Below are positions 1,603 to 14,193 of a stretch of DNA of 20,033 nucleotides, piece by piece. The stretch covers positions 1-20,033 of IMG/VR virus record IMGVR_UViG_3300021138_001323. One strand, 5' to 3'. The notes beneath the pieces were generated by a model. It searched no databases and was not told the origin of the DNA. It saw only the letters and a program-made list of their open reading frames with translations. The number at the start of each line of letters is the position of its first letter. The first letter of the stretch is position 1. The translations under genes and the position numbers were made by a program. Source of the DNA: a virus.

Positions 1603-1607
1603 AATAA

Positions 1608-1681
1608 GCGGGATTCGTAAAATGGTATTACCTTAGCCTTCCAAGCTAAAGTCGCGAGTTCGATTCTCGCATCCCGCTCCA
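1608..1681 (+). tRNA. tRNA-Gly(UCC)
   Basis: Acceptor GCGGGAT pairs with ATCCCGC, discriminator T, encoded CCA. The anticodon loop CTTCCAA (anticodon TCC) sits on a TTAGC/GCTAA stem. The T-arm GCGAG-TTCGATT-CTCGC is perfect. Its last base, A1681 of CCA, is also the first base of the ATG of the next gene, so tRNA 3' processing and translation start share a nucleotide. Confidence 0.95.
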
Positions 1682-2106
1682 TGAATATGAAAGATAAGTT
1701 TAAGCAGGCCTATATAGACATAGCACGAAGATTTGCTGAACTAAGTCATGCTCGACGCTTGAAAGTTGGTGCTATTGTAGTTAAAGATGATAGTGTTATT
1801 GCCTACGGCTACAACGGTATGCCCGCAGGTTGGGATAACAACTGTGAAGAACTACTAGACAACAGATCGTTAAAAACCAAGCCAGAAGTACTACACGCCG
1901 AATCTAATGCTATTGCAAAATTAGCAAGAAGTAGTGTAAGTGGATTAGCTGCTGATTTGTTTGTTACGCATAGTCCTTGTTTAGACTGTGCCAAACTTAT
2001 ATATCAAAGTGGAATAAAAAGAGTTTTTTATAGTGAAAATTATAGAGACGATTCAGGCTTGACCTTTCTAGAAAAGTCAGGTATAATCGTAGAACAAATT
2101 AAATAG
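1681..2106 (+). CDS. Deoxycytidylate (dCMP) deaminase family protein, 141 aa
   Basis: A zinc cytidine/deoxycytidylate deaminase fold. HAE at residues 72-74 (zinc His and catalytic Glu) and PCLDC at 99-103 (the two zinc Cys) are both intact. The N-terminal part matches dCMP deaminases, with 'RRLKVGAIVVKDD' and 'YGYNGMPAG'. The reaction is dCMP to dUMP, feeding dTMP synthesis. The closest type is T4 Cd/ComEB. The gene fits exactly between two tRNAs: its ATG shares the A of the tRNA-Gly CCA, and its TAG stop (2104-2106) overlaps the first two bases of tRNA-Val. There is no room for a Shine-Dalgarno. A second in-frame ATG lies at 1687. Translation may use a leaderless or near-leaderless mRNA released by tRNA processing. 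Confidence 0.9.
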   Translation: MNMKDKFKQAYIDIARRFAELSHARRLKVGAIVVKDDSVIAYGYNGMPAGWDNNCEELLDNRSLKTKPEVLHAESNAIAKLARSSVSGLAADLFVTHSPCLDCAKLIYQSGIKRVFYSENYRDDSGLTFLEKSGIIVEQIK

Positions 2107-2180
2107 GACGTTAACTCAGTTGGTAGAGTGCCTGCCTTACACGCAGTATGTCGGCGGTTCGAGCCCGTCACGTCCTACCA
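2105..2180 (+). tRNA. tRNA-Val(UAC)
   Basis: Acceptor AGGACGT pairs with ACGTCCT, discriminator A, encoded CCA. The anticodon loop is CTTACAC (anticodon TAC) on a CCTGC/GCAGT stem with one G-U. The T-arm is GGCGG-TTCGAGC-CCGTC with one G-U. It overlaps the stop codon of the dCMP deaminase gene by two bases. Confidence 0.94.
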
Positions 2181-2198
2181 AATAATAATAGGAAACAT

Positions 2199-2888
2199 AT
2201 GGCAAGAACTAAAAAACAAGTTGAACAAACTACAGCAGTGGTAGAATCTGATACTCCTCCAGTAATAGTAGAATCTACTAAACCTGCACCAAGACCATTA
2301 TTAAATCATTGGCATTTAAATGAAGTACAAAATGTTGAACCTTGGTGTTTTGCGAGCGAAATCTTTAGCACCGAAGAATTAGATAAAATTATTAGCATCG
2401 GCGAAAATCCGGAATTATCTAGCGAAATGGGCAAGGGAACAACAGTAGGCCCTACTAGTACTGCTAGGAGTTGTTTTGTTTCTTGGATAAACGCCGGAAT
2501 ACCAGAAAATGCATGGATCTTTCAAAGATTAACATCAACTGTTAACAACATCAATGATAGATTTTTTAAATATGATTTAAAAACTATTGATAGTTTACAA
2601 TTTACCAAATATGTTAGTGATACAGAAGACCACTACAAACAACATCGTGATATGCTGTATTCAAGTTTTACTATTCGTAAACTAAGTTTTAGTCTGATGT
2701 TAAGTGACCCTTCTGAGTATGAAGGCGGAGATTTGTTATTACACCTAGGCGATACTCCAGAGAAGCCTAAAAAGGATAAAGGTACTATTGTATTCTTCCC
2801 CAGTTTCGCATTGCACGAAGTTACTCCAGTAACCAAAGGTGTTAGATATAGTTTAGTCGGTTGGGTCAGTGGCCCTCCATTTAAGTAA
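2199..2888 (+). CDS. 2-oxoglutarate/Fe(II)-dependent prolyl-4-hydroxylase-like oxygenase, 229 aa
   Basis: A double-stranded beta-helix oxygenase of the P4Hc/PKHD type. Iron ligands are HRD at 149-151 (HxD) and H206 in 'FALHEVTPV'. R216 in 'GVRYSLVGWV' is the expected 2-oxoglutarate-binding residue. These enzymes hydroxylate proteins or small molecules with O2 and 2-oxoglutarate; the substrate is unknown. Residues 1-35 are Thr/Pro-rich and probably disordered. The chosen ATG at 2199 has AGGA at 2190-2193; an upstream in-frame start would lie inside tRNA-Val. A second, unrelated-looking oxygenase is encoded at 15012. The nearby parvulin (3718) also acts on proline, but no direct link is shown. 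Confidence 0.88.
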   Translation: MARTKKQVEQTTAVVESDTPPVIVESTKPAPRPLLNHWHLNEVQNVEPWCFASEIFSTEELDKIISIGENPELSSEMGKGTTVGPTSTARSCFVSWINAGIPENAWIFQRLTSTVNNINDRFFKYDLKTIDSLQFTKYVSDTEDHYKQHRDMLYSSFTIRKLSFSLMLSDPSEYEGGDLLLHLGDTPEKPKKDKGTIVFFPSFALHEVTPVTKGVRYSLVGWVSGPPFK

Positions 2889-2897
2889 AAAGTTTTT

Positions 2898-2937
2898 CGG
2901 AATGTAGCGCAGCCTGGTTAGCGCATCTGCTTTGGGA
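2898..2937 (+). pseudogene. 5' half of an interrupted tRNA-Pro(UGG)
   Basis: CGGAATG (2898-2904) is an acceptor strand that pairs over all 7 bp with CATTCCG at 3690-3696. It is followed by a good D-arm (GCGC, loop, GCGC), anticodon stem strand TCTGC and loop TTTGGGA (anticodon TGG). C1-G72 is typical of bacterial tRNA-Pro. The sequence then leaves the tRNA pattern: the expected 3' stem strand GCAGA does not follow. About 750 bases separate the two halves and hold an HNH gene and a complete tRNA-Pro. The gene is disrupted at the anticodon loop, either by an unrecognised intron or by an insertion that killed it. Confidence 0.75.
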
Positions 2938-2958
2938 AAATCTCGTTTTTGTATCGCT

Positions 2959-3456
2959 ATGATAAATAGTAGTATGAAAAACAGAATAACAAAACCAGGT
3001 TTGTTAGCAATGAATCGTAAGATAGGGTGTGTACATTGTGCTAAAGAGACTACAGTAGGAAACATAAAGAAGCATGAAACATCGTGTTTTTTGAATCCTA
3101 CTAATGTAGTTGAGTGCGCGGTTTGTAGTAAGCCAATAAAGAACTATAAGGAATCAAAAGGTACCTGTAGTCGTAGTTGTGCTAACAAGCATTTTAGAAG
3201 TGGTGAAGGCAACGGTAATTGGAAAGGTGAAAACTATCAGTCCATTTGTTTTCTTCATCATGAAAAGAAGTGTGTAGTATGCGGTGAGAATAAGATTGTA
3301 GCAGTTCATCATTATGACCATAATCATGAGAATAATGATCCTAACAATTTAGTTCCGCTTTGTCCTACACATCATAGTTATGTACATAGTCGTTATGTTG
3401 TCGAGGTACAACCCGCAATAGACGAATATGTTAAGAGATTTCTCCGGTTCGCCTAA
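2959..3456 (+). CDS. HNH homing-type endonuclease with zinc-binding motifs, about 165 aa
   Basis: Two N-terminal Cys/His clusters are seen: CVHC with later H and C at about 24-43, and CAVC with CSRSC at about 53-74. An HNH nuclease core follows at about 105-143: CVVC, HHYDH (117-121), N130, then CPTHH. Such enzymes make a site-specific break that drives copying of their own gene. It sits between the halves of a broken tRNA-Pro, and its last five codons lie inside the intact tRNA-Pro at 3442. The start is uncertain: ATG 2959 is used here, ATG 2974 is nearly as good, and a TTG at 2932 would lie in the tRNA anticodon loop. No clear ribosome site is present; GATAAATA at 2961-2968 resembles a T4-type late promoter box (TATAAATA). 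Confidence 0.85.
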   Translation: MINSSMKNRITKPGLLAMNRKIGCVHCAKETTVGNIKKHETSCFLNPTNVVECAVCSKPIKNYKESKGTCSRSCANKHFRSGEGNGNWKGENYQSICFLHHEKKCVVCGENKIVAVHHYDHNHENNDPNNLVPLCPTHHSYVHSRYVVEVQPAIDEYVKRFLRFA

Positions 3457-3520
3457 CCTGGTTATGGCACCTCGTTTGGGACGAGGAATAATGTGAGTTC
3501 GAATCCCACACTGGAGACCA
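3442..3520 (+). tRNA. tRNA-Pro(UGG), intact copy
   Basis: Acceptor CTCCGGT pairs with ACTGGAG (one G-U), discriminator A, encoded CCA. The anticodon stem CCTCG/CGAGG is perfect around loop TTTGGGA (anticodon TGG). The D-stem is short, GCC/GGC. The T-arm GTGAG-TTCGAAT-CCCAC has one A-C mismatch. The first 15 bases overlap the 3' end of the HNH gene. It lies between the two halves of another tRNA-Pro with the same anticodon and may replace it. Confidence 0.88.
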
Positions 3521-3661
3521 AGAGCAGCGGATAAGTTACATTATCCAGTATGAGTCGCTAAGGTAGGTACCTAACCCTTGGGGCGAGCAATAGTACACGA
3601 TTGCGATGTAACAGGAAGTAGTGATCTACTCACCGGGACCGGCCTCAAAACGAATCCCACC
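3521..3661 (+). ncRNA. Structured segment after tRNA-Pro, possible RNA element or intron remnant
   Basis: No open frame is seen. Several clean hairpins are visible: GGATAA/TTATCC at 3529-3546, GCAAT/ATTGC at about 3587-3604 and AGTAG/CTACT at 3618-3631. Like the element at 139-303 it directly follows a tRNA CCA end, and both contain AGGAAG, a short hairpin and CTCAC, then CAAAA. That shared order is suggestive only. I found no group I P7/S signature here. The segment could be a structured RNA, an unusual intron core or debris from the HNH insertion. GAGCAG at 3522-3527 could be the lost 3' anticodon-stem strand of the broken tRNA-Pro. Confidence 0.35.
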
Positions 3662-3691
3662 AATTTAGAGTATAAGGTTCGAATCCCACCA
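3651..3691 (+). repeat. 12-base direct repeat flanking the 3' piece of the broken tRNA-Pro
   Basis: CGAATCCCACCA occurs at 3651-3662 and again at 3680-3691. It is the T-loop/T-stem end of the tRNA, and 11 of its bases recur at 3500-3510 in the intact tRNA-Pro. The duplication suggests a past recombination or insertion junction in the T-arm of the broken gene. Confidence 0.6.
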
Positions 3692-3700
3692 TTCCGACCA
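3663..3700 (+). pseudogene. 3' fragment of the interrupted tRNA-Pro
   Basis: TTCGAAT (T-loop, 3678-3684), CCCAC, the acceptor strand CATTCCG (3690-3696), A and CCA. The acceptor pairs perfectly with the 5' piece at 2898. The bases before the T-loop (TAAGG) cannot form the T-stem: only two of five pairs are possible, so the T-stem 5' strand and 3' anticodon stem are missing or elsewhere. That argues for a dead gene rather than a spliced one. Confidence 0.7.
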
Positions 3701-3717
3701 TTTATAAAAGGAAAATC

Positions 3718-3987
3718 ATGCAAGTAAAAGCAAGTCATATTTTAGTGCCCTCATTGGCAGAAGCAGTTAATCTGCAAGAACAAATCTCAGCAGGCGCTGA
3801 CTTTGCTCAATTGGCCCGTGCTAATAGCAAATGCCCCAGCGGTCAAAACGGTGGAGACCTAGGTGTCTTTGGCCCAGGTATGATGGTTAAACCATTTGAA
3901 GAAGCTGCATTTGGCTGTGAAATTGGTAGGGTCGTAGGACCAGTCCAAACCCAATTTGGATATCACCTAGTTAAACGCACAGCCTAA
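3718..3987 (+). CDS. ppiC: Parvulin-type peptidyl-prolyl cis-trans isomerase, 89 aa
   Basis: The whole protein is a single parvulin domain closely like E. coli PpiC (93 aa): KASHILVPS at the N-terminus with the first active-site His, 'GADFAQLARANSKCPSGQNGGDLGVFGPG' in the middle and 'GPVQTQFGYHLVK' with the second His at the end. It has no signal peptide, so it acts in the cytoplasm, speeding cis-trans isomerisation of prolyl bonds. A strong ribosome site AAAGGA lies 7 bases before the ATG. Its stop overlaps the ATG of the next gene by one base. A free parvulin is unusual in a phage; it may help fold a phage protein. Confidence 0.93.
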   Translation: MQVKASHILVPSLAEAVNLQEQISAGADFAQLARANSKCPSGQNGGDLGVFGPGMMVKPFEEAAFGCEIGRVVGPVQTQFGYHLVKRTA

Positions 3988-4598
3988 TGAAATCGCTAAG
4001 TCAGTTGTATTTGGAAGGTAGTCAATTATACGGCGAAAATCCTCACCATTTTACTGATAAAGGGTCATGGCATACCTACTTAGATTTTTATCAAGAGTTG
4101 TTTGCCAAATATGACAATGATTTCAGATTGTTAGACATTGGTATCAATGCAGGTGGCAGTCTTTGGTTATGGACCAATTATCTAGACAACTACGATATTT
4201 GGGCAGTGGATATAATGCCCACATATATAATGTCAAGGCCATTCCAATCAGATCTCGATCAGAATCCTAACCTACATATACAGTGGAACAAGGATAGCAC
4301 TGATGTAGAAACTTATAATAGTATCCCGGAACAGTTTGATATTATCATCGACGACGGTGATCATAGACCCGAGATACAGGTTAAAACTTTTATGGCTGCT
4401 TGGCCCAAGTTAGCAACTCACGGTACTTATGTTATTGAAGATGTTCGAGGTGTTGAACAGGTCGGCTACCTTTTATACAATATCAGAAAAGTTTATCCGA
4501 ATACTAAATTTGATTTCTATTTTGGTACAGCAGAAAATGCTCAATGGAACGGTATAGGTATCAACGACGATATCATTGTAACAGTGACCAGTTTTTAA
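3987..4598 (+). CDS. Class I SAM-dependent methyltransferase-like protein, 203 aa
   Basis: The Rossmann-type SAM site is at 48-58 (LLDIGINAGGS), an acidic strand end at D74 ('WAVDIMP') would bind the ribose, and 'IIIDDGDHR' follows near 115. The latter resembles the metal-binding DDGxH strand of the macrocin-O-methyltransferase / cephalosporin-hydroxylase-like family, which often methylates sugars or secondary metabolites. The substrate is not known; the glycosyltransferases downstream make a sugar possible. It overlaps the parvulin stop by one base (TAATGA), so the two are coupled, and it is followed by a terminator. Confidence 0.75.
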   Translation: MKSLSQLYLEGSQLYGENPHHFTDKGSWHTYLDFYQELFAKYDNDFRLLDIGINAGGSLWLWTNYLDNYDIWAVDIMPTYIMSRPFQSDLDQNPNLHIQWNKDSTDVETYNSIPEQFDIIIDDGDHRPEIQVKTFMAAWPKLATHGTYVIEDVRGVEQVGYLLYNIRKVYPNTKFDFYFGTAENAQWNGIGINDDIIVTVTSF

Positions 4599-4608
4599 TT
4601 TAATACGG

Positions 4609-4648
4609 CCCTACCCAATGCATGTAATGTACGGTAGGGGTTTCTTTT
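4609..4648 (+). terminator. Rho-independent terminator
   Basis: CCCTACC (4609-4615) pairs perfectly with GGTAGGG (4633-4639), followed by a T-rich run (4641-4648). It lies 11 bases after the methyltransferase stop and ends the long tRNA/protein unit. The next promoter's -35 starts inside its T-run. Confidence 0.85.
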
Positions 4649-4675
4649 GACATTTTTATCAATCTATGTTATAAT
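4647..4675 (+). promoter_or_regulatory. Sigma-70 promoter, leaderless type
   Basis: TTGACA (4647-4652), 17 bases, TATAAT (4670-4675), with TG at 4667-4668 making an extended -10. The ATG at 4681 begins 6 bases after the -10, where transcription itself should start. No Shine-Dalgarno is possible, so the mRNA is predicted to be leaderless. Confidence 0.82.
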
Positions 4676-4680
4676 AGTGT

Positions 4681-5151
4681 ATGAATATTCCTAAATGTTA
4701 TCAATTAGTGGGAGTTCCGGGTAGCGGTAAAACTACTTGGATTAACAATCAAGATTGGACTCGAGATTGTGCTTACATTTCTACAGATCGTCTTGTAGAA
4801 GAATATGCAGCCGCCGAGGGTAAAACCTATAGTGAGGTGTTCAATGAATACATGCCACGGGCTGTAGAGTTGATGTCACAAGAAGTTATTGTGGCCCGCG
4901 AGGCGGGTCGAGATATTATTTGGGATCAAACTAGCACAACTCTTGCTAGTCGAGCTCGTAAATTTAATATGTTGCCTGACTATGAGCACGTTGCTGTAGT
5001 GTTTGAAACACCCGACAGAATTGAATTAAAGCGTCGATTGGCAAGTAGGCCCGGGAAAGAAATTCCAGATGCTGTAATAGAAGGTATGTTGGCCAGTTTC
5101 GAGATGCCAACGGAAGAAGAAGGTTTTAGGGAAATTTGGAGAGCGGTATGA
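4681..5151 (+). CDS. P-loop kinase of the polynucleotide-kinase-like AAA_33 family, 156 aa
   Basis: Walker A is GVPGSGKTT at residues 11-19. STDR at about 34-37 and WDQTSTT at 81-87 match the acceptor-site and lid-strand motifs of the T4 Pnk kinase domain and related AAA_33 kinases. A 'RLASRPG' basic segment near 135 fits the lid. The C-terminal phosphatase domain of T4 Pnk is absent. Likely roles are 5'-phosphorylation of RNA/DNA, for instance in tRNA repair, or of a small molecule. No RNA ligase is in view. It is expressed from a leaderless-type promoter and overlaps the next small gene by ATGA (5148-5151). Confidence 0.83.
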   Translation: MNIPKCYQLVGVPGSGKTTWINNQDWTRDCAYISTDRLVEEYAAAEGKTYSEVFNEYMPRAVELMSQEVIVAREAGRDIIWDQTSTTLASRARKFNMLPDYEHVAVVFETPDRIELKRRLASRPGKEIPDAVIEGMLASFEMPTEEEGFREIWRAV

Positions 5152-5261
5152 TGTATATTACAAATTACGACAGCTCTGTAAATCTTCCCTACGAAGATGG
5201 TTTATTAGAGTGGCTACAAGAACGTTACCCACATTCACGATACAGGATTGAATATGTCTGA
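5148..5261 (+). CDS. Very small protein, 37 aa, unknown
   Basis: The reading frame begins with ATG at 5148, overlapping the kinase stop (ATGA), and encodes MMYITNYDSSVNLP, then an acidic/aromatic segment ending RYPHSRYRIEYV. A second ATG is at 5151. Its last eight bases overlap the start of the next gene at 5254. It fills the gap between two coupled genes, which supports it being real. No motif is recognised. Confidence 0.6.
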   Translation: MMYITNYDSSVNLPYEDGLLEWLQERYPHSRYRIEYV

Positions 5262-5505
5262 AAAGAAAGTTAAAGAACCTATTGAACATAAAGACAAATT
5301 GGGACGATTGCTCAAAGTGGGCGATTGTGTAGCATATCCGTCTAGTAATAGTTTGATGATTGGCATTGTTAAGAAACTCAATCCCAAAATGGTTGGTGTT
5401 AAACCATTAAAAAATAATTGGGGCTCGGGCAATAAATATCCGCAGGATATAGTATTGTTAGAAGGACCTGAAGTTACAATGTATTTGTTGATGGCAAATA
5501 GTTGA
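5254..5505 (+). CDS. Small unknown protein, 83 aa, possible SH3-like beta barrel
   Basis: ATG 5254 is chosen because AGGA lies at 5244-5247 with 6-base spacing; the upstream TTG at 5248 is too close to it. The first 12 residues are charged. Then 'DKLGRLLKVGDCVAYPSSNS' and 'IGIVKKLNPKMVGVKPL' have the alternating hydrophobic pattern and VGDxV turn of SH3-like/KOW barrels. Function is unknown. The stop overlaps the -35 box of the next promoter. Confidence 0.75.
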   Translation: MSEKKVKEPIEHKDKLGRLLKVGDCVAYPSSNSLMIGIVKKLNPKMVGVKPLKNNWGSGNKYPQDIVLLEGPEVTMYLLMANS

Positions 5506-5530
5506 CATTTTAGTCTATTGGTGTTATAAT
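5502..5530 (+). promoter_or_regulatory. Sigma-70 promoter of the metallophosphoesterase gene
   Basis: TTGACA (5502-5507), 17 bases, TATAAT (5525-5530), with TGT before the -10. The leader is about 19 bases and carries AAAGGAGA at 5543-5550, a strong ribosome site, unlike the leaderless promoters nearby. Confidence 0.85.
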
Positions 5531-5555
5531 ACAATATTAAAGAAAGGAGATCGAT

Positions 5556-6158
5556 ATGCCAGCAGTATTTTTATATTCTGATCCACATTTTGGACACCAA
5601 GGAGTTTGTCGTTTTATGCGAAACGATGGTGTGACCAAATTACGGCCTTGGGATAATGCCGAGGAAATGGATGAAGAATTAATTAAAAGATATAACGAAA
5701 AAGTTCGTCCAAAAGACAAGTGTTATTTTTTAGGCGATGTTGTTATTAACCGCAAAGCATTACCTACGTTAGCCCGCTTAAATGGCGACAAGGTCTTAAT
5801 CCGCGGCAACCACGACATCTTCCGTGATGAAGACTACCGTGAATACTTTCGCGAGTTACGGGCTTACCACGTGATGAACGGTATGATCTTAAGTCATATC
5901 CCTGTTCATGAAGCAAGTTTAGGTCGCTTCGGCACCAACATCCACGGACACTTACATGCTAACAGAGTTATGAAGGCTCGCGGTGTTAATGCTAAAACTG
6001 GTGAAATCTTATACAGTGATGAGATTGATCCACGCTACTGGTGTGCTTGTGTTGAACAAACTGACTTTGCACCTATCTTATTTGAAGACGCTATGAAGCG
6101 TATAGAAGCAGAAGGTGGTGTAGTTGGATTTAAGAACGGCAACGGACCGACCATGTAA
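5556..6158 (+). CDS. Calcineurin-like metallophosphoesterase, 200 aa
   Basis: All five metal-binding blocks of the family are present: SDPHFGH (D9, H11), GDVV (G60-D61), GNHD (84-87), SHIPVH (H114) and GHLH (131-134). These dimetal enzymes cut phosphomono- or diesters. The short form with 'LYSDPHFGHxxxCRF' resembles phage and bacterial stand-alone phosphoesterases of unknown substrate, possibly nucleotide or cyclic-nucleotide. It has its own promoter, a strong Shine-Dalgarno and its own terminator, so it is a single-gene unit. Confidence 0.92.
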   Translation: MPAVFLYSDPHFGHQGVCRFMRNDGVTKLRPWDNAEEMDEELIKRYNEKVRPKDKCYFLGDVVINRKALPTLARLNGDKVLIRGNHDIFRDEDYREYFRELRAYHVMNGMILSHIPVHEASLGRFGTNIHGHLHANRVMKARGVNAKTGEILYSDEIDPRYWCACVEQTDFAPILFEDAMKRIEAEGGVVGFKNGNGPTM

Positions 6159-6159
6159 G

Positions 6160-6190
6160 AATAGGACCTCAGGGTCCTATTTTTTTTTTG
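6160..6190 (+). terminator. Rho-independent terminator
   Basis: AATAGGACC (6160-6168) pairs perfectly with GGTCCTATT (6173-6181) around a TCAG loop, and runs into ten T residues (6180-6189). It directly follows the metallophosphoesterase stop. Confidence 0.95.
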
Positions 6191-6205
6191 GATTAAATAT
6201 CTCAA

Positions 6206-6280
6206 GGGTCCTTAGTTCAACGGATAGAACACCGTGTTCCGATCGCGGTGATAGGGGTTCAATTCCTCTAGGGCCCGCCA
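6206..6280 (+). tRNA. tRNA-Arg(CCG)
   Basis: Acceptor GGGTCCT pairs with AGGGCCC (one T-G), discriminator G, encoded CCA. The anticodon loop TTCCGAT (anticodon CCG) is on a CCGTG/CGCGG stem with one wobble. The T-arm is AGGGG-TTCAATT-CCTCT. It stands alone between a terminator and the glycosyltransferase promoter; no strong own promoter is seen. Confidence 0.93.
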
Positions 6281-6289
6281 TGTTATAAT
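6281..6289 (+). promoter_or_regulatory. Extended -10 promoter, leaderless type
   Basis: TGTTATAAT begins right after the tRNA-Arg CCA end. There is no good -35 (it would lie in the tRNA T-arm), so this would depend on the TGn extension. The ATG at 6297 starts 8 bases after the -10, at the predicted transcription start. Confidence 0.55.
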
Positions 6290-6296
6290 GATAATT

Positions 6297-7325
6297 ATGT
6301 GTATGTCAACATTACACATTCTAGCCAGCCCTTACGATGCAGTTAACATCAATCGAAGAGATGATCCATTTAGTATACTAGCCTACAAGTTTATGAGGCA
6401 TATGGAACAATACGGATGGAAGTGTGTACACTACGGAATTCCGGGAACAGAAGTTCCGTGTGAAATGGTTCAGTGTTTAGACAGTCGATCCGGTCATGGA
6501 CCCACTGATTCTAAAATTTACAACGATAGAGCAGGTGCTGCCATTGCTGCTCGTAAACAACCAGACGATATGATATTATGTTATCATGGTTGGGAAAACA
6601 AAGGTGCCTGCGATCTCAATCCAGACCTTAGAGCAGTAGAACACAGTATTGGCTATGAAACCAAGGCAGTGTTTGCTCCGTTTCGTGCTTTTACTAGCCA
6701 AGCACAAATGCACATGTTTTACGGTGAACGAAATATGTTGATGAGTCCTAGTTGGTTTGATACTGTGATTTATAATGCTATATCAAAAGACGAATTTGAC
6801 TACACCGAAGATAAGGATGATTATTTTCTCTACTTTGGTCGTGTTATTCCTGCCAAGGGTGTAAACATTGCTATACAGGCCACAGAAGCAGCAGGTAAAA
6901 AATTAATCATTGCCGGTCGCGGAACACTGGCGGATATGGGGTATAGTTCAACTCCTAGCCATGTTACCTTAGCCGGTCTATGTGATGCTGAACAACGTCG
7001 TAAACTCATGTCCAAGGCCAAGGCCATACTGGGACCTACAACCTATGTTGAACCATTTGGCAATATGATCGTAGAAGGTTATATGAGCGGTACTCCTGCT
7101 ATTACCACAGACTGGGGTGGATTTACTGAAACAGTGATCAACGGCGTTACTGGATTTCGTTGCCGGGAGCATCGACAGTTTGTAGAAGCACTAGAACGCA
7201 TTGACGAAATTAAACCCCGAAACTGCTATGACTGGGCTTTAAACAACTGCGAAGATCAAGTAGTGCACTCTCAGTTAGATACTTGGTTAAGAAAAGTTCA
7301 AGAATTTAATTATTACAGAGAATGA
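6297..7325 (+). CDS. GT4-family (GT-B fold) glycosyltransferase, 342 aa
   Basis: The C-terminal half carries the group 1 glycosyltransferase signature: 'YFLYFGRVIPAKGVNIAI' at about 176-193 opens the nucleotide-sugar domain, and E252 and E260 in 'VEPFGNMIVEGYMSGTPAI' form the EX7E motif. It transfers a sugar from an activated donor to an unknown acceptor. The frame is open from ATG 6288, but that codon lies in the -10 box; ATG 6297 (or 6303) is the likely start. No Shine-Dalgarno is visible. The next gene overlaps by ATGA. Likely part of a glycan or base-glycosylation set. Confidence 0.88.
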   Translation: MCMSTLHILASPYDAVNINRRDDPFSILAYKFMRHMEQYGWKCVHYGIPGTEVPCEMVQCLDSRSGHGPTDSKIYNDRAGAAIAARKQPDDMILCYHGWENKGACDLNPDLRAVEHSIGYETKAVFAPFRAFTSQAQMHMFYGERNMLMSPSWFDTVIYNAISKDEFDYTEDKDDYFLYFGRVIPAKGVNIAIQATEAAGKKLIIAGRGTLADMGYSSTPSHVTLAGLCDAEQRRKLMSKAKAILGPTTYVEPFGNMIVEGYMSGTPAITTDWGGFTETVINGVTGFRCREHRQFVEALERIDEIKPRNCYDWALNNCEDQVVHSQLDTWLRKVQEFNYYRE

Positions 7326-8077
7326 AAACTGCGTTTATTATTACTAGTTGTATCGAAGTTAAAAACGAGCATCCCTTAACCTATAGTAAGACTCGTAGTT
7401 ATTTTTCTAGTGAAGAAAGACTGCGTCAAACCATTACCACCATTGCCAGCATAGATTCGCTGGTAAAAAAGGATGCAACAATATATATTGTAGATGCCAG
7501 CGAGCATTGGGAAAACTATGCTAATTATTTTTGGTATCAACCTAACCTAAAATTTATTAGTATTAAGAACGAGTTTCCTGAAATATTCAACACAGTTACC
7601 AGTCATCCTAATAAGAGTTACTGCGAATGTTTGCTGTTAGAGGCCTTTATGAGCAAGTATCGAGAAGAACTAGTACTTCATGATCATGTTGTTAAAATCA
7701 GTGGAAGATATTTTCTTGACAGCAACTTTGATATAGAAATATTTAAAAAGAACAATAATAAAATTGTTTTCAAACATCCTATAAAGAATGAGTGGCAAGA
7801 CTGGTGGGGATATAATATGGTTGATCTGCGACAGCAACAAAACAATAATATTCTTTATCAGTACTGTTCTGTACTATTCGGATTCTGTAGTTTACAGTTT
7901 GATTATATGCTAGGTACAATTAAAAAAATAAAAGACACACTGGTCGACCCCGTTAACTATCATTATGATTTGGAAACACTGAGTTATTTTTTTACTAGAG
8001 GTAGCCAAGATATTATACATGCCGATTGGATAGTTTATGGATTTCACGGGCCCGACGGCAGATTTGTTCGATATTAA
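7322..8077 (+). CDS. Putative GT-A-type glycosyltransferase, 251 aa
   Basis: The N-terminus MKTAFIITSC starts a Rossmann-like strand, 'ATIYIVDAS' follows near 55-63, and 'DHVVKISGRYFLD' at about 119-131 matches the KxxGRY motif seen in small GT-A-like transferases of capsule/LPS loci and phages. Catalytic assignment is tentative. The start overlaps the GT4 stop (ATGA, 7322-7325), so the two are translationally coupled and probably build one glycan. Base composition is AT-richer than the GT4 gene. Confidence 0.65.
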   Translation: MKTAFIITSCIEVKNEHPLTYSKTRSYFSSEERLRQTITTIASIDSLVKKDATIYIVDASEHWENYANYFWYQPNLKFISIKNEFPEIFNTVTSHPNKSYCECLLLEAFMSKYREELVLHDHVVKISGRYFLDSNFDIEIFKKNNNKIVFKHPIKNEWQDWWGYNMVDLRQQQNNNILYQYCSVLFGFCSLQFDYMLGTIKKIKDTLVDPVNYHYDLETLSYFFTRGSQDIIHADWIVYGFHGPDGRFVRY

Positions 8078-8097
8078 CAGAATTTTAACCATTATTA

Positions 8098-8127
8098 TTG
8101 ACTTTAAATCTATCTGCAACTTATACT
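8098..8127 (+). promoter_or_regulatory. Probable sigma-70 promoter of the metalloprotease gene
   Basis: TTGACT (8098-8103), 18 bases, TATACT (8122-8127). The leader is about 28 bases and holds AAAGGTG (8148-8154), spaced 7 bases from ATG 8162. Confidence 0.6.
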
Positions 8128-8161
8128 AAGATAAATATTTTAGTCTAAAAGGTGTGCATGT

Positions 8162-8878
8162 ATGTTTGACTGGTCCAAACTAAACCGCCAAGATATAGCC
8201 GATGCTATACAAACTCTTTCTCCCAAACTTGTGGGAGATTCGATCCAGCAACAAGATTTCCATAGAATACTATCCACTTATCTCAAACGCAAATATCGTG
8301 TTAAAGTATCCGAGGGTTGGGATACAAAAGTGAAAACACACGCTGTTTTCACAGGCGGTACCTACTATAGTGACTTAGATGCGGAAGATAAAAAGTGCAT
8401 CGAATTGAACTTTATCTACAACCCTGTTATATCAGAATTTAAAATTACCAAACGAAGATTCAACCAATTGTGTAATTTGATTGCCGATACTCTACTGCAT
8501 GAAATTATACACATGCGCCAATATCGCAGACGATCTTTTAAATCGTTGCCTAACTATAACAGCACAGCATCCAAGGGCAAACTACGAGAAGAACAAAGTT
8601 ATTTGGGCAACAGTGATGAAATAGATGCCTATGGGTTTAACATAGCCTGCGAACTTTTACATAAACACAAGGGTGATCAGCAGGCTGTAATTGATCATCT
8701 AAACATAGATCTCAAAGGTAGTAAAAAATCCGGCGGATGTTGGAAAGTTTATCTAAAAGCCTTTGAGCACGATCATAATCACGAAATCATTAAGAAACTT
8801 AAAAAGAAAGTAATACGATACATACCTCGAGCAGTAGAAGGTCGTCCGTTCAAGAATACCGACTGGATCTGCTATTGA
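8162..8878 (+). CDS. HExxH zinc metallopeptidase-like protein, 238 aa
   Basis: The zinc motif HEIIH is at residues 113-117 inside a hydrophobic helix (LIADTLLHEIIHMRQY). A conserved 'NSDEIDAYGFN' at 150-160 supplies the likely third ligand (E153). The arrangement is like SprT-type or phage gluzincin peptidases. The C-terminus (about 205-225) is rich in Lys/His. No signal peptide is present, so it acts in the cytoplasm or virion. The target is unknown. Its stop codon overlaps the -35 of the next promoter. Confidence 0.8.
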   Translation: MFDWSKLNRQDIADAIQTLSPKLVGDSIQQQDFHRILSTYLKRKYRVKVSEGWDTKVKTHAVFTGGTYYSDLDAEDKKCIELNFIYNPVISEFKITKRRFNQLCNLIADTLLHEIIHMRQYRRRSFKSLPNYNSTASKGKLREEQSYLGNSDEIDAYGFNIACELLHKHKGDQQAVIDHLNIDLKGSKKSGGCWKVYLKAFEHDHNHEIIKKLKKKVIRYIPRAVEGRPFKNTDWICY

Positions 8879-8903
8879 CATTTAAATAACACTATGTTAA
8901 AAT
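8875..8903 (+). promoter_or_regulatory. Sigma-70 promoter, leaderless type
   Basis: TTGACA (8875-8880), 17 bases, TAAAAT (8898-8903), TG at 8895-8896. The ATG at 8910 is the seventh base after the -10, the usual start of transcription. The 17-base block around the -10 (8892-8908) matches 4664-4680 at 16 positions, so these are copies of one promoter type. Confidence 0.78.
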
Positions 8904-8909
8904 AGTGTT

Positions 8910-9137
8910 ATGACATATAAAACTCATACCAGCACTATACGCACTCTCAAGCAGGGTGATCCTAACTTTGTAATCAACGACGGACTAATGCAGACACCTC
9001 GAGCAGGATTCGAAATCAGTAATCGATGCCCAGACAATTATGCAAGCCTTATTCAGGAATGTATTATGCATGGTTGGCTCAAACCTGTAGCACATGTCAC
9101 AGAACGAGAATTGTTGTTTATGGGGTTGACTAAATGA
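8910..9137 (+). CDS. Small unknown protein, 75 aa
   Basis: Expressed from a leaderless-type promoter; no Shine-Dalgarno is possible. The sequence begins MTYKTHTSTIRTLKQGDP and ends 'HVTERELLFMGLTK', with a Cys-containing middle (CPDNY, QECIMHGW). No known motif or membrane segment. The stop overlaps the next ATG (ATGA, 9134-9137), so it is coupled to the dehydrogenase gene. Function unknown. Confidence 0.8.
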   Translation: MTYKTHTSTIRTLKQGDPNFVINDGLMQTPRAGFEISNRCPDNYASLIQECIMHGWLKPVAHVTERELLFMGLTK

Positions 9138-10012
9138 GTAATGGCGGTTATACTATGAATATGCCCGGCACTATCGGTGGTGCTAAAATTATTTTTAAAA
9201 ATTCAAACATGGATAAAATTGGAATTATTGGCCTAGGCTTTGTAGGTGGCGCTATTAAAAACGCTCTAAATGACATTTGGGGTCATGAAGTAACCTGTGT
9301 AGATCCCGCTAAAGGTTATAATAATACCATTGCTGATCTTAAAGATTGCGACGGTGTATTTGTTTGTGTGCCAACTCCGCAAGATGATGATGGCACTTGT
9401 GATACAAGCCCCATGGAAAGTGTATTAGCAGAATTAGCCTCTGTAGGTTTCCAAGGGGTTATTATTAGTAAATGTACCGCTCCAGCAGATGTTTATGAAC
9501 GCTTAAATGAACAATATCCAAATCTTGTTCACGCACCCGAGTTCCTTACTGCAGCCAATGCCAACCGAGATTATGTCAACGGCACATTCTGTATCATCGG
9601 AGGTAAACATAAATTATATCTCCGCGAAGCTGAACGCATCATTCGAACAAGCCAACAAAGTCTAGGTGATAATGTTAAATGGTGTTCAATTGGCGAAGCT
9701 GCATTGGCAAAATATACCATTAACTGCTTTATGAGCACCAAGGTTATCTTTATGAATGAAATGTATAACCTTGCTACCAAGATGGGATTTGACTACAATA
9801 CGATTGCTAACATGGTCACAATGGACCCTCGCATGGGTAAGAGCCATATGCAGGTTCCAGGACCCGACGGCATGTTTGGGTTCGGCGGTGCGTGTTTCCC
9901 CAAAGATACCAGTGCTCTACTAAAGACTGCAGAACAACAGGGTATTGATATGATGGTTTTGGATGCCGCAGTTAAGAAAAATACCATCCTTCGCTTGACA
10001 GAACCTAAATAA
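9134..10012 (+). CDS. Short UDP-glucose/GDP-mannose dehydrogenase-family protein, 292 aa
   Basis: The NAD-binding domain starts at about residue 26 (MDKIGIIGLGFVGGA, GxGxxG). 'VFVCVPTPQ' follows near 75, the central helical domain carries 'APEFLTAANA', and the catalytic Cys is C254 in FGFGGACFPKD. Family members oxidise NDP-hexoses to uronic acids and are usually over 400 aa; here the C-terminal UDP-sugar-binding domain is missing, the protein ending 38 residues after the Cys. It may be a minimal functional form or need a partner. The first 25 residues are an extension; an internal ATG at 9209 begins the conserved core. It probably supplies a sugar for the neighbouring glycosyltransferases. 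Confidence 0.88.
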   Translation: MSNGGYTMNMPGTIGGAKIIFKNSNMDKIGIIGLGFVGGAIKNALNDIWGHEVTCVDPAKGYNNTIADLKDCDGVFVCVPTPQDDDGTCDTSPMESVLAELASVGFQGVIISKCTAPADVYERLNEQYPNLVHAPEFLTAANANRDYVNGTFCIIGGKHKLYLREAERIIRTSQQSLGDNVKWCSIGEAALAKYTINCFMSTKVIFMNEMYNLATKMGFDYNTIANMVTMDPRMGKSHMQVPGPDGMFGFGGACFPKDTSALLKTAEQQGIDMMVLDAAVKKNTILRLTEPK

Positions 10013-10040
10013 TCCTGTATTATAAGGTATAGGAATAATA

Positions 10041-10793
10041 ATGTACGACAAAGCATACAAAGATTTTCAACAAGGCGAAGAACTTCATAGCGACAAAGGC
10101 TATGAAGAAGCATATTTTGCTGACGTAATTCGAACTAAAATGAAACGTGATCAAAAGCGTTTTTGGGCCGGTGACAACATCAGCGATTATCTACATGAAG
10201 GCGATCGTGAACGACTAATTGACGAAGCTACAGAAGCATTTGAATTAGTTCTTGATCGGTTGCTTATTGATCGCGAAAACGATCCTAATAGTAAAGGTAC
10301 AGCTCGCCGACTGGCTAAAATGTATTTTAACGAAATTATGGCAGGCAGATATGAACCGGCTCCAGATGCAACAGCATTTCCAAACGACTCGGCGGATCGT
10401 TATGAAGGTATGCTTGTTGTTCGTAGTGAGTTACGCTCTATGTGCTCACATCATCACCAGCCCGTTAGTGGTGTTGCTTATATTGGTATTATTGCTGCTA
10501 ATAAGCTCATTGGTCTCTCTAAGTACACTCGTATTGCTCAGTGGTGTGCTCGTCGTGGTACTCTCCAGGAGGAACTATGTAATGACATTGCTAGAGAAAT
10601 CAGTAAGGCAACTGATTCAGAAAATGTAGGTGTTTATTTAAGAATGACTCACGGATGTTGCGAGAACAGAGGTATTATGGCTCACGATAGTTCAACAACA
10701 ACTTCTGTCCTTAAAGGAGCATTTAACAAAGATCCGGGCACAAAGAAGGAGTTCTTTGATACACTGAGTCTTCAGGAATCTAATAAGCGGTAA
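10041..10793 (+). CDS. folE: GTP cyclohydrolase I, 250 aa
   Basis: The C-terminal 165 residues are the FolE T-fold: 'GTARRLAKM' at 86-94, zinc site MCSHHH (C135, H138), 'VGVYLRMTHGCCENRGI' with C206 as third zinc ligand, and 'SSTTTSVLKGAF'. It converts GTP to 7,8-dihydroneopterin triphosphate, the first step of folate and of 7-deazaguanine (preQ0/queuosine) synthesis. The first 80 residues are an acidic helical extension longer than in E. coli FolE. TAGGAAT precedes the ATG. In phages folE usually serves 7-deazaguanine DNA modification, but no queC, queD or queE gene is in this window. Confidence 0.92.
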   Translation: MYDKAYKDFQQGEELHSDKGYEEAYFADVIRTKMKRDQKRFWAGDNISDYLHEGDRERLIDEATEAFELVLDRLLIDRENDPNSKGTARRLAKMYFNEIMAGRYEPAPDATAFPNDSADRYEGMLVVRSELRSMCSHHHQPVSGVAYIGIIAANKLIGLSKYTRIAQWCARRGTLQEELCNDIAREISKATDSENVGVYLRMTHGCCENRGIMAHDSSTTTSVLKGAFNKDPGTKKEFFDTLSLQESNKR

Positions 10794-10830
10794 GTATATC
10801 GCCCAACAAATCATTCAATAAAGGTAAAAT

Positions 10831-11556
10831 ATGAAAAAAGGTAAGTTAAACATTCCTAGCCGCCAACAAGTGGCACAGAATCAAGTAGCCAATGCTGCTC
10901 AACAATCTATGCAACCGCAAGCCGGTGGACGCCGTCCTAGCATTATGATTGCTGTTCCGGCAATGGAAATGGTTAATGCTGAATTTGCACAGCATTTGGC
11001 CATGGCAGCGGCTAATATGGTTGCCAATGGCATTAAGATTAATTGTGCATTTAACATTGGCTCAGTGATCACTATTGCTCGTCGCAATCTAGTTGATATC
11101 TTCTTGAAGAGCGACTTTGATTACATTTGGTGGGTTGATAGCGATATGAAATTCCCTATCGATGCTCCTATGCGTTTGTTGGCTCGTAACAAAGATATCG
11201 TCGGTGCTAACTATCGTCGTCGTCGTTTCCCTAATCCTAACTTTACAGGTATGATGGGATCCAGCGGTCAGTTCACAGAATTCCAAACTACAGACAATTC
11301 TCCTGCAATGGAACTTATCGATGTATTGCCACACGGTATGGTTCTATGCAAGCGTGAAGTTTACGAACGAGTTCCTCAACCGCACTACCTACAAGAATAT
11401 GTTAAAGAACTTAATCTTGAAATTGGTGAGGACATTTATTTCTGCCAACAAGCTCAAAAGGCAGGATATGAAGTATGGTGCGATCAAGAATTGAGCAGAG
11501 AAGTAGCACACATTGGTATTTTCCACTTTAACTACAATCTATCAGTTCCAAAATAA
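10831..11556 (+). CDS. GT-A-fold glycosyltransferase-like protein, 241 aa
   Basis: The N-terminal 35 residues are Gln/Ala-rich and probably disordered. A GT-A domain follows: 'PSIMIAVPAMEMVNAEF' at 36-52, 'FDYIWWVDSDMKFP' with the DxD metal motif D103-S-D105, 'DIVGANYRRRR' at 122-132 and 'IGEDIYFCQQAQKAGYEVW' at 198-216, where the E/D pair is the usual catalytic-base region. It resembles phage GT2-like proteins often seen beside tail or base-modification genes. AAAGGT lies 6 bases before the ATG. The acceptor is unknown. Confidence 0.78.
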   Translation: MKKGKLNIPSRQQVAQNQVANAAQQSMQPQAGGRRPSIMIAVPAMEMVNAEFAQHLAMAAANMVANGIKINCAFNIGSVITIARRNLVDIFLKSDFDYIWWVDSDMKFPIDAPMRLLARNKDIVGANYRRRRFPNPNFTGMMGSSGQFTEFQTTDNSPAMELIDVLPHGMVLCKREVYERVPQPHYLQEYVKELNLEIGEDIYFCQQAQKAGYEVWCDQELSREVAHIGIFHFNYNLSVPK

Positions 11557-11571
11557 ACTGAAAGGGAACCC

Positions 11572-11739
11572 ATGTTGTTCGAAAGCATAGAGATTCGTAA
11601 AGTACGCAATGGTGTGATTGTCACACTGCGTACCGACGAAGATGAAGATCAAGAATATGTCTACGACACAGATCGTAAAGCGATTAAGTTTGTCAAAGAC
11701 CTTCTTGAAGCAAAAAGTAAGGAACAGGCTCCGGCTTGA
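11572..11739 (+). CDS. Small acidic unknown protein, 55 aa
   Basis: Begins MLFESIEIRKVRNGVIVTLR and continues with an acidic stretch (TDEDEDQEYVYD) and a basic helix. AAAGGGA at 11561-11567 is a good ribosome site. The hydrophobic pattern suggests a small beta-beta-alpha protein. No function is recognised. It fits the gap between two supported genes. Confidence 0.75.
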   Translation: MLFESIEIRKVRNGVIVTLRTDEDEDQEYVYDTDRKAIKFVKDLLEAKSKEQAPA

Positions 11740-11746
11740 TTAAACA

Positions 11747-12214
11747 ATGACAGTTAAGAAACAATATAGCATAGGCGACACAGTTTGGATCTACGGTGTT
11801 AGCAATGGTAAATCTACAGAAGGTAAGGTTGTTCAAACTTTTACCGTTGACCAAGATGGTTGGGATCCAGATACGGTTCATTATGTTATAGCGATTCCTA
11901 CTGAAATCGAATACTTGCTAGAAGTAAGAACATGGGAAACCATTAGCCAAACTAAAGACGGACATGTCGGTAGTTTGCGTGAAGCATTTAATGATCCAGA
12001 TGCTGGCATTAGATTGATGCGAAGGACTGGTGTTGATCTGACTTCCGAGGGTGACTTTGAGCAACATGATGAGGATGATGACATCAGTGCCGACGCTATT
12101 CATGCTGCTCTTGAAAAGTCACAGAAGGATGCTAGCCATCAACCCTTGGTTATCAAAGAAAATAAAGCACGACGCCGCTATCTTAGCCGCAAGAAAAAGC
12201 CAAATGCAAACTGA
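11747..12214 (+). CDS. Unknown protein, 155 aa, with SH3-like N-terminus
   Basis: Residues 5-50 ('YSIGDTVWIYGVSNGKSTEG', then KVVQTFTV) have the GDxVW turn and strand pattern of small SH3-like barrels. The middle (70-120) is acidic, with 'HDEDDDISADAIHAALEKS'. The last 20 residues are basic (RRRYLSRKKK), which could bind nucleic acid. No clear Shine-Dalgarno precedes the ATG. The 3' end overlaps the next gene by 11 bases. Function unknown. Confidence 0.75.
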   Translation: MTVKKQYSIGDTVWIYGVSNGKSTEGKVVQTFTVDQDGWDPDTVHYVIAIPTEIEYLLEVRTWETISQTKDGHVGSLREAFNDPDAGIRLMRRTGVDLTSEGDFEQHDEDDDISADAIHAALEKSQKDASHQPLVIKENKARRRYLSRKKKPNAN

Positions 12215-12524
12215 TTTTAGGCCATTAGAACGTGCTGTAAAGATTTGGATGGACGAGTTGAACACCTCAACGGTTAAGCCAACTTTACATAAAGCCTTTA
12301 ATGGTCATTGGACACTACAACTTGTTGATGTGGAAGATGAATATCCTGTTGCTACCTTTGCTAATATACCCTCTAATAAGTTAGATCGTGCAGTTGAGTG
12401 GACCACTGAGCGTTTAGAGAGTTGGGATAACTGCCGACGTATGGCTTGGGATATGTGGGATTTTAAACATCGAAAAGATGCAGAAAAGTTTATTACCTTA
12501 TTTCATTTATCATGGCATCAGTGA
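12204..12524 (+). CDS. Unknown protein, 106 aa
   Basis: The frame is open further upstream, but the ATG at 12204 (MQTDFRPLERAVKIWMDELN) fits the 11-base overlap style of this run and avoids a long overlap with the previous gene. The protein mixes 'FNGHWTLQLVDVEDEYPVAT' strands with a Trp-rich helix (ESWDNCRRMAWDMWDFKHRK). No family recognised. It overlaps the next gene by 13 bases. Confidence 0.7.
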   Translation: MQTDFRPLERAVKIWMDELNTSTVKPTLHKAFNGHWTLQLVDVEDEYPVATFANIPSNKLDRAVEWTTERLESWDNCRRMAWDMWDFKHRKDAEKFITLFHLSWHQ

Positions 12525-12817
12525 GATTCAAAGTTGAAAACAATGTTGTGAAAGAAATTCATAAGGTTGTTGTATATCGTTTCTATTTGAGCGATGTAGA
12601 GGATCCGGACTTGTATGCCGCGCAACCGATGTGGGATTGGAAACAAAGTGAACAGGGTAAGTTTGTTATGGAACATGCCGTAGGTGAACCCGAATGGCAC
12701 AGACAAATAAGTTACGAAACATTTGGTTATCGATATGCTATAACAGCAGAACTTGAAGCAAAGAAACTAAGTGAATTTTATTTGAGATGGGGCAAAGATG
12801 GAAGTAACAAGAGTTAG
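12512..12817 (+). CDS. Unknown protein, 101 aa
   Basis: Begins MASVRFKVENNVVKEIHKVV followed by 'YRFYLSDVEDPDLYAAQPMW', then 'EWHRQISYETFGYRYAITA' and an amphipathic C-terminal helix. The aromatic and charged pattern suggests a small alpha/beta protein. It overlaps both neighbours (13 and 20 bases), so translation is probably coupled. No motif identifies a function. Confidence 0.75.
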   Translation: MASVRFKVENNVVKEIHKVVVYRFYLSDVEDPDLYAAQPMWDWKQSEQGKFVMEHAVGEPEWHRQISYETFGYRYAITAELEAKKLSEFYLRWGKDGSNKS

Positions 12818-13028
12818 TAGCAAGTGTATTGTTAAACAAGAAAAGACCAGTAAAACAGTAGAAGCAGAAGTTTTATCATTTAATGAAAAACGAAATCTCA
12901 CTGTTGTACTAAACAAATCAGTAAAATTAAATATGTCGTGGAATGGTAGACTCTACGAAGGCCGTATGGCTGGAATTGACTTTACCACAGAAGGGCCAAC
13001 AATAACAACATCAAAGACAGGAAGATAA
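12798..13028 (+). CDS. Small unknown beta-rich protein, 76 aa
   Basis: Alternating Val/Thr/Lys strands (CIVKQEKTSKTVEAEVLSF, then NLTVVLNKSVKLNMSW) suggest a small all-beta fold. 'NGRLYEGRMAGIDFTTEGP' looks like a hairpin turn region. It starts 20 bases inside the preceding gene. AGGAAG near its 3' end serves as the ribosome site of the next gene. Confidence 0.75.
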   Translation: MEVTRVSSKCIVKQEKTSKTVEAEVLSFNEKRNLTVVLNKSVKLNMSWNGRLYEGRMAGIDFTTEGPTITTSKTGR

Positions 13029-13032
13029 AAAA

Positions 13033-13398
13033 ATGAACCCGTTCAAGGATCAATATAAGTTTATGAAGGCTTGCGACCAAAGTGTTGACAAGTTTAATAG
13101 TTCGCAGTATAATATGTATGTAACTTTAATCGACGAAGAACGTGAAGAACTCGAACAGGCAATTAGTAATGGCGATCAAGTTGAACAACTAGATGCACTG
13201 ATCGATATTCTAGTTGTTACCATCGGCGCTATTCATTCAGCAGGATTTGATGCTGAGGGTGCTTGGAAAGAAGTTATGCGATCTAATTTCAGTAAAGTAG
13301 GCGATGATGGAAAGGTCAGGAAAAGAGAGGACGGAAAAGTCCTTAAACCGATCGGTTACTCCCCTCCACAACTTTCAGAATATATTACAAAGAAATAA
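13033..13398 (+). CDS. MazG-like nucleoside triphosphate pyrophosphohydrolase, 121 aa
   Basis: An all-alpha NTP pyrophosphatase. EEREEL at 35-40 and DALIDIL at 54-60 give the ExxE...D..D metal-binding pattern of MazG/HisE-like enzymes. The C-terminal 'DDGKVRKREDGKVLKPIGYSPPQL' is a tail common in phage members. It would hydrolyse (d)NTPs to NMPs and PPi, or possibly alter ppGpp signalling as proposed for other phage MazG proteins. Its stop lies 2 bases from the stop of the convergent GIY-YIG gene. Confidence 0.87.
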   Translation: MNPFKDQYKFMKACDQSVDKFNSSQYNMYVTLIDEEREELEQAISNGDQVEQLDALIDILVVTIGAIHSAGFDAEGAWKEVMRSNFSKVGDDGKVRKREDGKVLKPIGYSPPQLSEYITKK

Positions 13399-13400
13399 TA

Positions 13401-14060
13401 TTATCGAACGGTGTATCTATTTTTATAGATTCCGTTCTTATTATATCTTTTTGCCCAAAATAATGATTTAGTATCTATTCCAAGAGGTTTAAGAATTTCT
13501 GAAGAATTGCGGCAATTAAAAGGTATTTCGATATTATCTTTTATATCTATAAGTATATAAGTTTTAACAAAAGTTTCTCGAGATTCGTTTGCCCTTCTTA
13601 CACCGGCCGCTATTTTAGCACTTACTTCCTCTGGAGTTTTTCTACCATAATTCCAATGTCCTTTCCCCGATCGTGTAATAGACATTTGTTGGCAAATTTC
13701 TTTCGACGGACGAATTCCTGTCCTGCCCTTTGATATATTTGCTTTAACTTCTTCCGAAGGAATCCATCCAACATTTCCATCGCCGCCATCAGTTTTATTT
13801 CGGAGTATACCTGTTCCGTTATCAATGCGACCATACCACCGAATCATTCTACGCTCAATGGCTAAAGAACCAACGTTAGTTAAGTTATGTTCAAGAATAA
13901 CAATATTAGAAAAATCCTTTAAAGGGAAGACGGTCCTGTCTGATTTTGCCCAGGCTCGCTTGCCTTGTCCTTTGCCTATATAATACGGTGTTCCATCTTT
14001 TCGAAGATATGCGTAAACATAGAATCCAGATGGCGGATTTTGGGGTGAATAAATAGTCAT
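13401..14060 (-). CDS. GIY-YIG homing-type endonuclease with NUMOD-like repeats, 219 aa
   Basis: The GIY-YIG core is FYVYAYLR at about 13-20 and PYYIGKG at 25-31, then R35 and catalytic E69 in '[13 protein letters not shown]'. Downstream, '[20 protein letters not shown]' and '[20 protein letters not shown]' resemble NUMOD3 DNA-binding repeats found in Seg-type enzymes of T4. The start at 14060 has AAAGGA upstream; an earlier ATG at 14120 is less likely. It is antisense to all neighbours and sits neatly between a stop and a promoter, as a freestanding homing gene would. AATAAATA upstream on its strand (near 14124-14131) recalls a phage late-promoter box. Confidence 0.9.
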
Positions 14061-14139
14061 GCTGTTAGTTCCTTTACAACTGATAGAGAGGGTGGATACT
14101 GGTAATATCGCGATCCTCACTTTTATTTATTCATTTTTG

Positions 14140-14168: not shown

Positions 14169-14193
14169 ATATTAAAACTTAAAGAGAAATAAA

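Follow-up and report, generated by a model that had tools for sequence, protein, structure and literature searches.

The DNA analysed here, referred to as the window, is a virus record of 20,033 bp in which a tRNA-Pro(UGG) gene is split in two by an insert. This insert holds, in order, an HNH endonuclease gene, a complete tRNA-Pro(UGG), a structured RNA and a short conserved tail (Table 1). The acceptor strands of the broken gene, CGGAATG at 2898-2904 and CATTCCG at 3690-3696, pair at 7/7 positions, and the HNH gene and second tRNA lie between them as originally predicted, the HNH stop at 3456 falling within the tRNA at 3442-3520 to give an overlap of 15 nt. The original prediction described the insert as an HNH gene plus a tRNA; both are there, but the structured RNA at 3522-3662 had been overlooked. 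The TTTGGGA direct repeat, to which the same prediction drew attention, is present in both anticodon loops but is trivial, as it is the tRNA-Pro(UGG) anticodon loop itself. Elsewhere, the window carries metabolic cargo over 1681-15812, with two 2OG-Fe(II) oxygenases (2148 and 15012), a PpiC-type isomerase of 89 aa, a dCMP deaminase, GTP cyclohydrolase I, UDP-glucose dehydrogenase and a glycosyltransferase.

Table 1. Features of the interrupted tRNA-Pro(UGG) locus in window coordinates.
Feature	Position	Strand	Basis
Host tRNA-Pro(UGG) 5' half, acceptor to anticodon loop TTTGGGA	2898..2937	+	Aligned to L004 2160-2199, one difference
Inserted element, 739 bp in place of 14 bp of target (GCAGAGGGTCGTGA)	2938..3676	+	BLAST junctions against L004
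TAAATA motif upstream of the HNH start	2963..2968	+	13/35 endonuclease genes
HNH endonuclease gene	2974..3456	+	PHROG_1271; conserved His/Asn/Cys columns; AlphaFold model
Replacement tRNA-Pro(UGG), 5' end overlapping the HNH stop	3442..3520	+	ARAGORN; Rfam tRNA, 46.7 bits
Conserved structured RNA, 141 nt, starting 2 nt past the tRNA CCA and ending CCACCA	3522..3662	+	Model R1, covariation
P1 hairpin GGATAA-GTTACA-TTATCC	3529..3546	+	3 pairs with two-sided changes
Pseudoknot strand GTTACA (P1 loop)	3535..3540	+	Complementary to 3607-3612 in 37/37
Palindromic apical segment TAGGTACCTA, candidate dimer contact	3564..3573	+	Palindrome in 32/37 members
Pseudoknot strand TGTAAC	3607..3612	+	Complementary to 3535-3540 in 37/37
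Conserved 3' end of the element (ATTTAGAGTATAAG)	3663..3676	+	Similar sequence with full T-arm in L024 and L028
Host tRNA-Pro 3' half: T-loop, acceptor strand, ACCA	3677..3700	+	Identical to L004 from 2214 on

The HNH gene most likely starts at the ATG at 2974, other starts being an ATG at 2959 and a TTG at 2932. Its product matches the HNH endonuclease family PHROG_1271 (E 4e-13), and the His/Asn/Cys columns are invariant in the alignment of the HNH family. The AlphaFold model, derived from 22 sequences, has a mean pLDDT of 81, with the C-terminal beta-beta-alpha segment (residues 115-142) at about 90-96. Pfam HNH_3 and HNH_2 matches fell below the curated cut-off and a Foldseek search of the model against the PDB returned nothing under E 0.001; the weak best matches include the HNH nucleases Cap5, IscB and McrA, and a search of the HNH profile against PDB sequences likewise gave IscB as the best match, over the HNH region. 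The presence of a predicted HNH nuclease domain is thus supported by the PHROG match together with the modelled fold. Upstream, the TAAATA motif resembles the late promoters of T4 type, and it occurs no more than 30 nt before the start of 13 of the 35 endonuclease genes tested, compared with 2.5% of all ATGs.

The complete tRNA-Pro has fully paired acceptor (7/7) and anticodon (5/5) stems, and its C1:G72 pair and A73 are those of bacterial tRNA-Pro. Its sequence differs from that of the broken gene, including the anticodon stem and the variable region. The tie between this tRNA and the HNH gene extends well beyond the window, with an overlap of equal length between HNH stop and tRNA-Pro start in at least 12 loci, and the overlapping unit is kept down to about 45-58% HNH identity. 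A tRNA-Pro is the immediate neighbour of 28/47 distinct HNH relatives, and tRNA-Pro makes up 31 of the 63 tRNAs adjoining the HNH family (49%) compared with 12 of 296 others (4%), an excess for which the Fisher p of 8e-18 is computed over related loci that are not fully independent.

The structured RNA directly behind this tRNA is represented by about 40 distinct copies in viral contigs, gathered by searching with an 18-nt probe and afterwards with a gapped pattern. A tRNA lies 1-3 nt upstream in 35/39 copies according to ARAGORN; 20 of these are tRNA-Pro, the others including Gly, Ala, Leu, Tyr, Val, Thr, Asp and Arg, and the copies in L102 and L115 follow tRNA 3' ends that ARAGORN overlooked. 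The copies in L089 (1307-1447) and L090 are found after a protein stop codon, not a tRNA. Copies with a complete 3' end terminate in CCACCA or a close variant, and the RNA is single-copy in all 12 larger records carrying it. Model R1 scores the window RNA at 150.7 bits (E 6.5e-30), the window having been part of its training set. Folding of the region as a single sequence did not outperform shuffled controls (z -0.12), and the structure therefore rests on covariation. Across 37 sequences, 93.8% of cells pair in the proposed structure versus at most 45% in slid controls, and 13 pairs show two-sided changes. The two pseudoknot strands are invariant across the 37 members and so provide no covariation. 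At one hairpin apex, a perfect 10-nt palindrome occurs in 32/37 members as five different sequences, with a 6-nt palindrome in three more. As the central bases of a palindrome cannot pair within one hairpin, a contact between two RNA molecules is predicted, an argument previously used for OLE and GOLLD (PMC12286853).

Rfam 15 contains no family that covers the structured RNA in the window or in eight further loci scanned, and no copy was found among isolate phages by blastn. Bacterial genome contigs held no copy either, their two pattern matches lacking the structure and being attributable to chance. Similarly, no HDV-like Rfam family matched 3522-3662 and, by eye, no complement of the first bases GAGCAGC is present. 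The RNA looks like a new, uncatalogued family; our working guess is that of an independent phage RNA that would share its transcript with the tRNA and mature through tRNA 3' processing.

The two halves had been predicted to derive from one tRNA-Pro(UGG), and a joined relative bears this out. An exact search with the 5' half of the broken gene led to L004, a contig that shares the neighbouring genes of the window at 94% DNA identity and in which an intact tRNA-Pro(UGG) occupies the same place (2160-2237). BLAST sets the junctions at window 2937/L004 2199 and window 3677/L004 2214, and therefore the 739-bp insert took the place of 14 bp of target. The insertion was not clean, as these 14 bp (GCAGAGGGTCGTGA) are missing. 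The same site is occupied in the window and empty in L004, the present/absent polymorphism expected of a free-standing homing endonuclease.

A second expectation for such endonucleases, that the element be closer between two genomes than the DNA around it, is borne out by L002 and L005, which are one phage (100% over 5130 bp) and were counted once. Their element differs from that of the window at 3 of about 740 positions, none of them outside the non-coding 3' part, whereas the 2.4-kb region at 1606-3988 is about 84% identical overall between the window and L002, with the near-identical element included in that figure. Because of this disparity the element is judged to be far younger in the window and L002 than their common ancestor, and the comparison indicates that it moved recently between diverged phages. 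An assembly artefact was also considered and is ruled out by the presence of the element on separate contigs. In L022 the element is 95% identical and the upstream DNA unrelated. Altogether, an HNH gene and a complete tRNA-Pro inside a split tRNA-Pro with 7/7 acceptor pairing are found in the window, L002, L022, L024 and L028, and the host tRNA sequences differ among these loci. All carriers of the split layout, and all carriers of the structured RNA, are uncultured contigs.

The layout is not restricted to one type of endonuclease. A search with the 3' tail of the element plus CCA found 11 loci, in all of which this sequence directly follows a tRNA-Pro(UGG), in some cases with other enzymes. 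L218 has an Endonuclease VII-type gene (Endonuclease_7, Pfam E 6.5e-18) between pairing tRNA-Pro halves, and L213 and L216 have an HNH/NUMOD1 gene (PHROG_655) accompanied by a tRNA-Pro of its own. The L213 and L216 units, of 818 bp, are 99.6% identical within unrelated flanks and beside different 5' tRNA halves. In both, the 3' half fails to pair with its 5' counterpart; remnants can therefore be carried along or exchanged. The 5' half in L213 is similar to the L218 replacement tRNA-Pro, so one element may, to judge from this single case, have invaded the replacement gene of another. As a separate observation, L214 and L219 have identical flanks and an interrupted tRNA-Pro whose 3' half differs, suggestive of local allele exchange.

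A related arrangement is found in L096 (3240-4200), where the interrupted gene is the structured RNA itself. A GIY-YIG/NUMOD3 gene lies inside the RNA directly after the P1 hairpin and is followed by a complete RNA copy, whose P1 is altered at several positions and still pairs (GGCGAG-GTTACG-TTCGCC). L091 is the uninterrupted allele and has the same tRNA-Pro; against it, identity is 65% in the regenerated P1 and 91% in the remainder. At the insertion site the regenerated part is thus recoded, which is what would be expected of a replacement that resists cleavage. This remains a single case, because no relatives of the L096 enzyme were found at other copies of the structured RNA; its relatives lie elsewhere. 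On the reverse strand of L103 (about 1433-2400 of the reverse complement), an HNH-like gene stands in place of the 3' domain of the RNA, its stop overlaps a complete tRNA-Ser, and a short 5' fragment that resembles tRNA-Ser (GGAAGCGTG) precedes the gene; this is possibly the same layout on another tRNA.

An intron seated in a tRNA anticodon loop is a classic homing arrangement, and it could be supposed that the halves are self-spliced to a functional tRNA-Pro, with the HNH gene and second tRNA as passengers. Candidate introns do occur among the loci compared (L071, L106 and L074), and each keeps the anticodon stem on both sides. In the window, the 14 bp of target are gone, the 3' anticodon strand among them, and the T-stem is mispaired at 3/5 positions, as it is in L002 (2/5 in L022). 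Splicing had been named as the finding that would overturn the idea of a destroyed and replaced tRNA, and joining these halves could not give a tRNA. It would also be needless given the complete tRNA-Pro. A group I intron is ruled out, as the exons do not join to an intact tRNA, and self-splicing of any kind is considered highly improbable. The stems decide this question; Rfam reported no intron family in the window up to E 5 but is a weak test, having likewise missed the L074 and L071 candidates. The T-stem is complete in L024 and L028, as would be expected if the tail derives from an older host with a TAAGG/CCTTG stem, and the tail at 3663-3676 is probably a T-stem strand from an earlier tRNA-Pro host.

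As for the candidate introns themselves, L071 (3249-3545) and L106 (reverse strand) are tRNA-Leu-like and L074 (2445-2763) is a tRNA-Pro; all three have short anticodon-loop insertions with both anticodon strands kept. Group I-like sequence, AGAGACT...AGTCCAGAC, is seen in L071 and L106. Rfam at E 0.5 was silent on the L071 and L074 insertions, the two that were scanned.

The association of parts could instead have arisen by chance, a free-standing HNH gene having landed in a tRNA and an unrelated tRNA-Pro, with no rescue function, having been acquired beside it. Phage tRNA arrays are fluid, and several HNH relatives adjoin other tRNAs (Ala, Arg, Thr) or none. We nevertheless regard this as unlikely, given the overlapping HNH/tRNA-Pro unit conserved among distant relatives, the excess of tRNA-Pro beside the family, a layout common to three endonuclease types and, in L096, a different RNA that was also regenerated after interruption. 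Less likely still is that the replacement tRNA-Pro is the mobile unit, selected for example by escape from host tRNA nucleases, with the endonucleases as changing passengers that exploit the locus. Extra phage tRNAs can counter tRNA-cleaving defences (PMC13096335). The replacement tRNA-Pro also occurs without the HNH gene in L082 and L097, and with the HNH tail only in L126, and the same 3' remnant is seen behind various tRNA-Pros that have various endonucleases before them. Against this, the identity that runs through the element includes the endonuclease gene, and homing endonucleases normally decay once they have become fixed.

Given this anatomy, the empty site in L004, the recent movement of the element between phages that have diverged and its repeated occurrence in several tRNA-Pro genes, the insert is best read as a mobile homing-endonuclease cassette, belonging to tailed phages, which breaks tRNA-Pro(UGG) genes and compensates with its own complete tRNA-Pro(UGG); to this reading we assign a probability of about 0.78. 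The proposal made at the outset, in which a homing element ruins a tRNA and brings an equivalent with it, gains support from the joined relative and the non-restorable halves; the idea can now be extended by the conserved HNH/tRNA-Pro unit, the near-identical element in diverged phages and the recurrence with unrelated endonucleases. In a mixed infection, the HNH protein, provided that the cassette is expressed, would cut the tRNA-Pro gene of an element-free phage, perhaps in the stretch that runs from the anticodon loop to the T-loop. The cut site is not readable from the junction, because the left junction of L024, L027 and L028 falls within the D-loop, not the anticodon loop. The break would be repaired from the donor, with conserved tRNA-Pro sequence and the flanking genes as homology arms, such that the recipient would lose its own tRNA-Pro and gain both the endonuclease and the replacement. 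The replacement is presumably not cut, because its anticodon stem and variable region differ from those of the target, and the structured RNA behind it would travel with this copy of the cassette.

Endonuclease elements that replace what they break have been described in fungal mitochondria, where the mORF elements of Allomyces and Glomus are found in atp6, atp9, cox2 and nad3 (PMC3630166). Such a mORF enters a gene, pushes the gene's end aside and provides a diverged copy that works in its stead, the native end being left as a remnant (PMC3630166), and the window similarly pairs an endonuclease gene with a foreign copy for the broken gene, in the form of a different, complete tRNA-Pro. The mORF elements are the closest published idea, although they concern mitochondrial protein-coding genes with an in-frame fused replacement, whereas the present cassette is found in phages and carries a whole tRNA gene. 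The closest phage case for tRNA genes is SegB of T4, a free-standing GIY-YIG homing endonuclease that is tied to phage tRNA genes and drives their inheritance. SegB, however, lies between tRNA genes, targets a tRNA intergenic region and splits no tRNA (PMC2988022, PMC13096335), and no report of SegB carrying a replacement tRNA was found in the open-licence literature. Group I introns with homing endonucleases also keep an insertion in a tRNA gene tolerable for the host (PMC3984707), but they do so by splicing, unlike the spare gene and lost target sequence seen here. We found no account in the open-licence literature of a phage endonuclease cassette that interrupts a tRNA gene while providing a substitute tRNA.

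For the structured RNA, GOLLD, ROOL and OLE offer a precedent as bacterial and phage RNAs with palindromic loops and covariation that backs intermolecular contacts, and GOLLD and ROOL are often near tRNAs (PMC12286853). Those RNAs are several hundred nt long, in contrast to the 141 nt of the present RNA, which is unmatched in Rfam and sits immediately behind the tRNA CCA. Among phage RNAs that adjoin tRNAs, the theta ribozymes come closest, likewise beginning only a few nt from the tRNA 3' end (PMC10879173). For the RNA at 3522-3662, Rfam gave no HDV-like match and inspection by eye showed no HDV-type P1; nothing matching a tRNA-abutting RNA of its kind was found in the open-licence literature.

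Selfish endonucleases in useful genes usually persist by splicing or by residing between genes, and replacement of a whole RNA gene represents a further solution. Such replacement could explain the varied and often duplicated tRNA-Pro genes of these phages. The RNA of 141 nt adds an apparently uncatalogued molecule that is precisely linked to tRNA 3' ends and predicted to dimerize through its palindromic loop. Taken more broadly, tRNA-Pro(UGG) may be a battleground in these phages, where each of three or more unrelated endonuclease families came independently to cut the gene and replace it with recoded, cleavage-resistant copies, sometimes invading each other's replacements, with the same logic having spread to new dimer-forming RNAs attached to phage tRNAs; we give this wider proposal an even chance of being correct. 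The cassette itself is a natural model for rescue-type gene drives and, if the battleground proposal is true, its elements would be a natural counterpart of engineered home-and-rescue drives.
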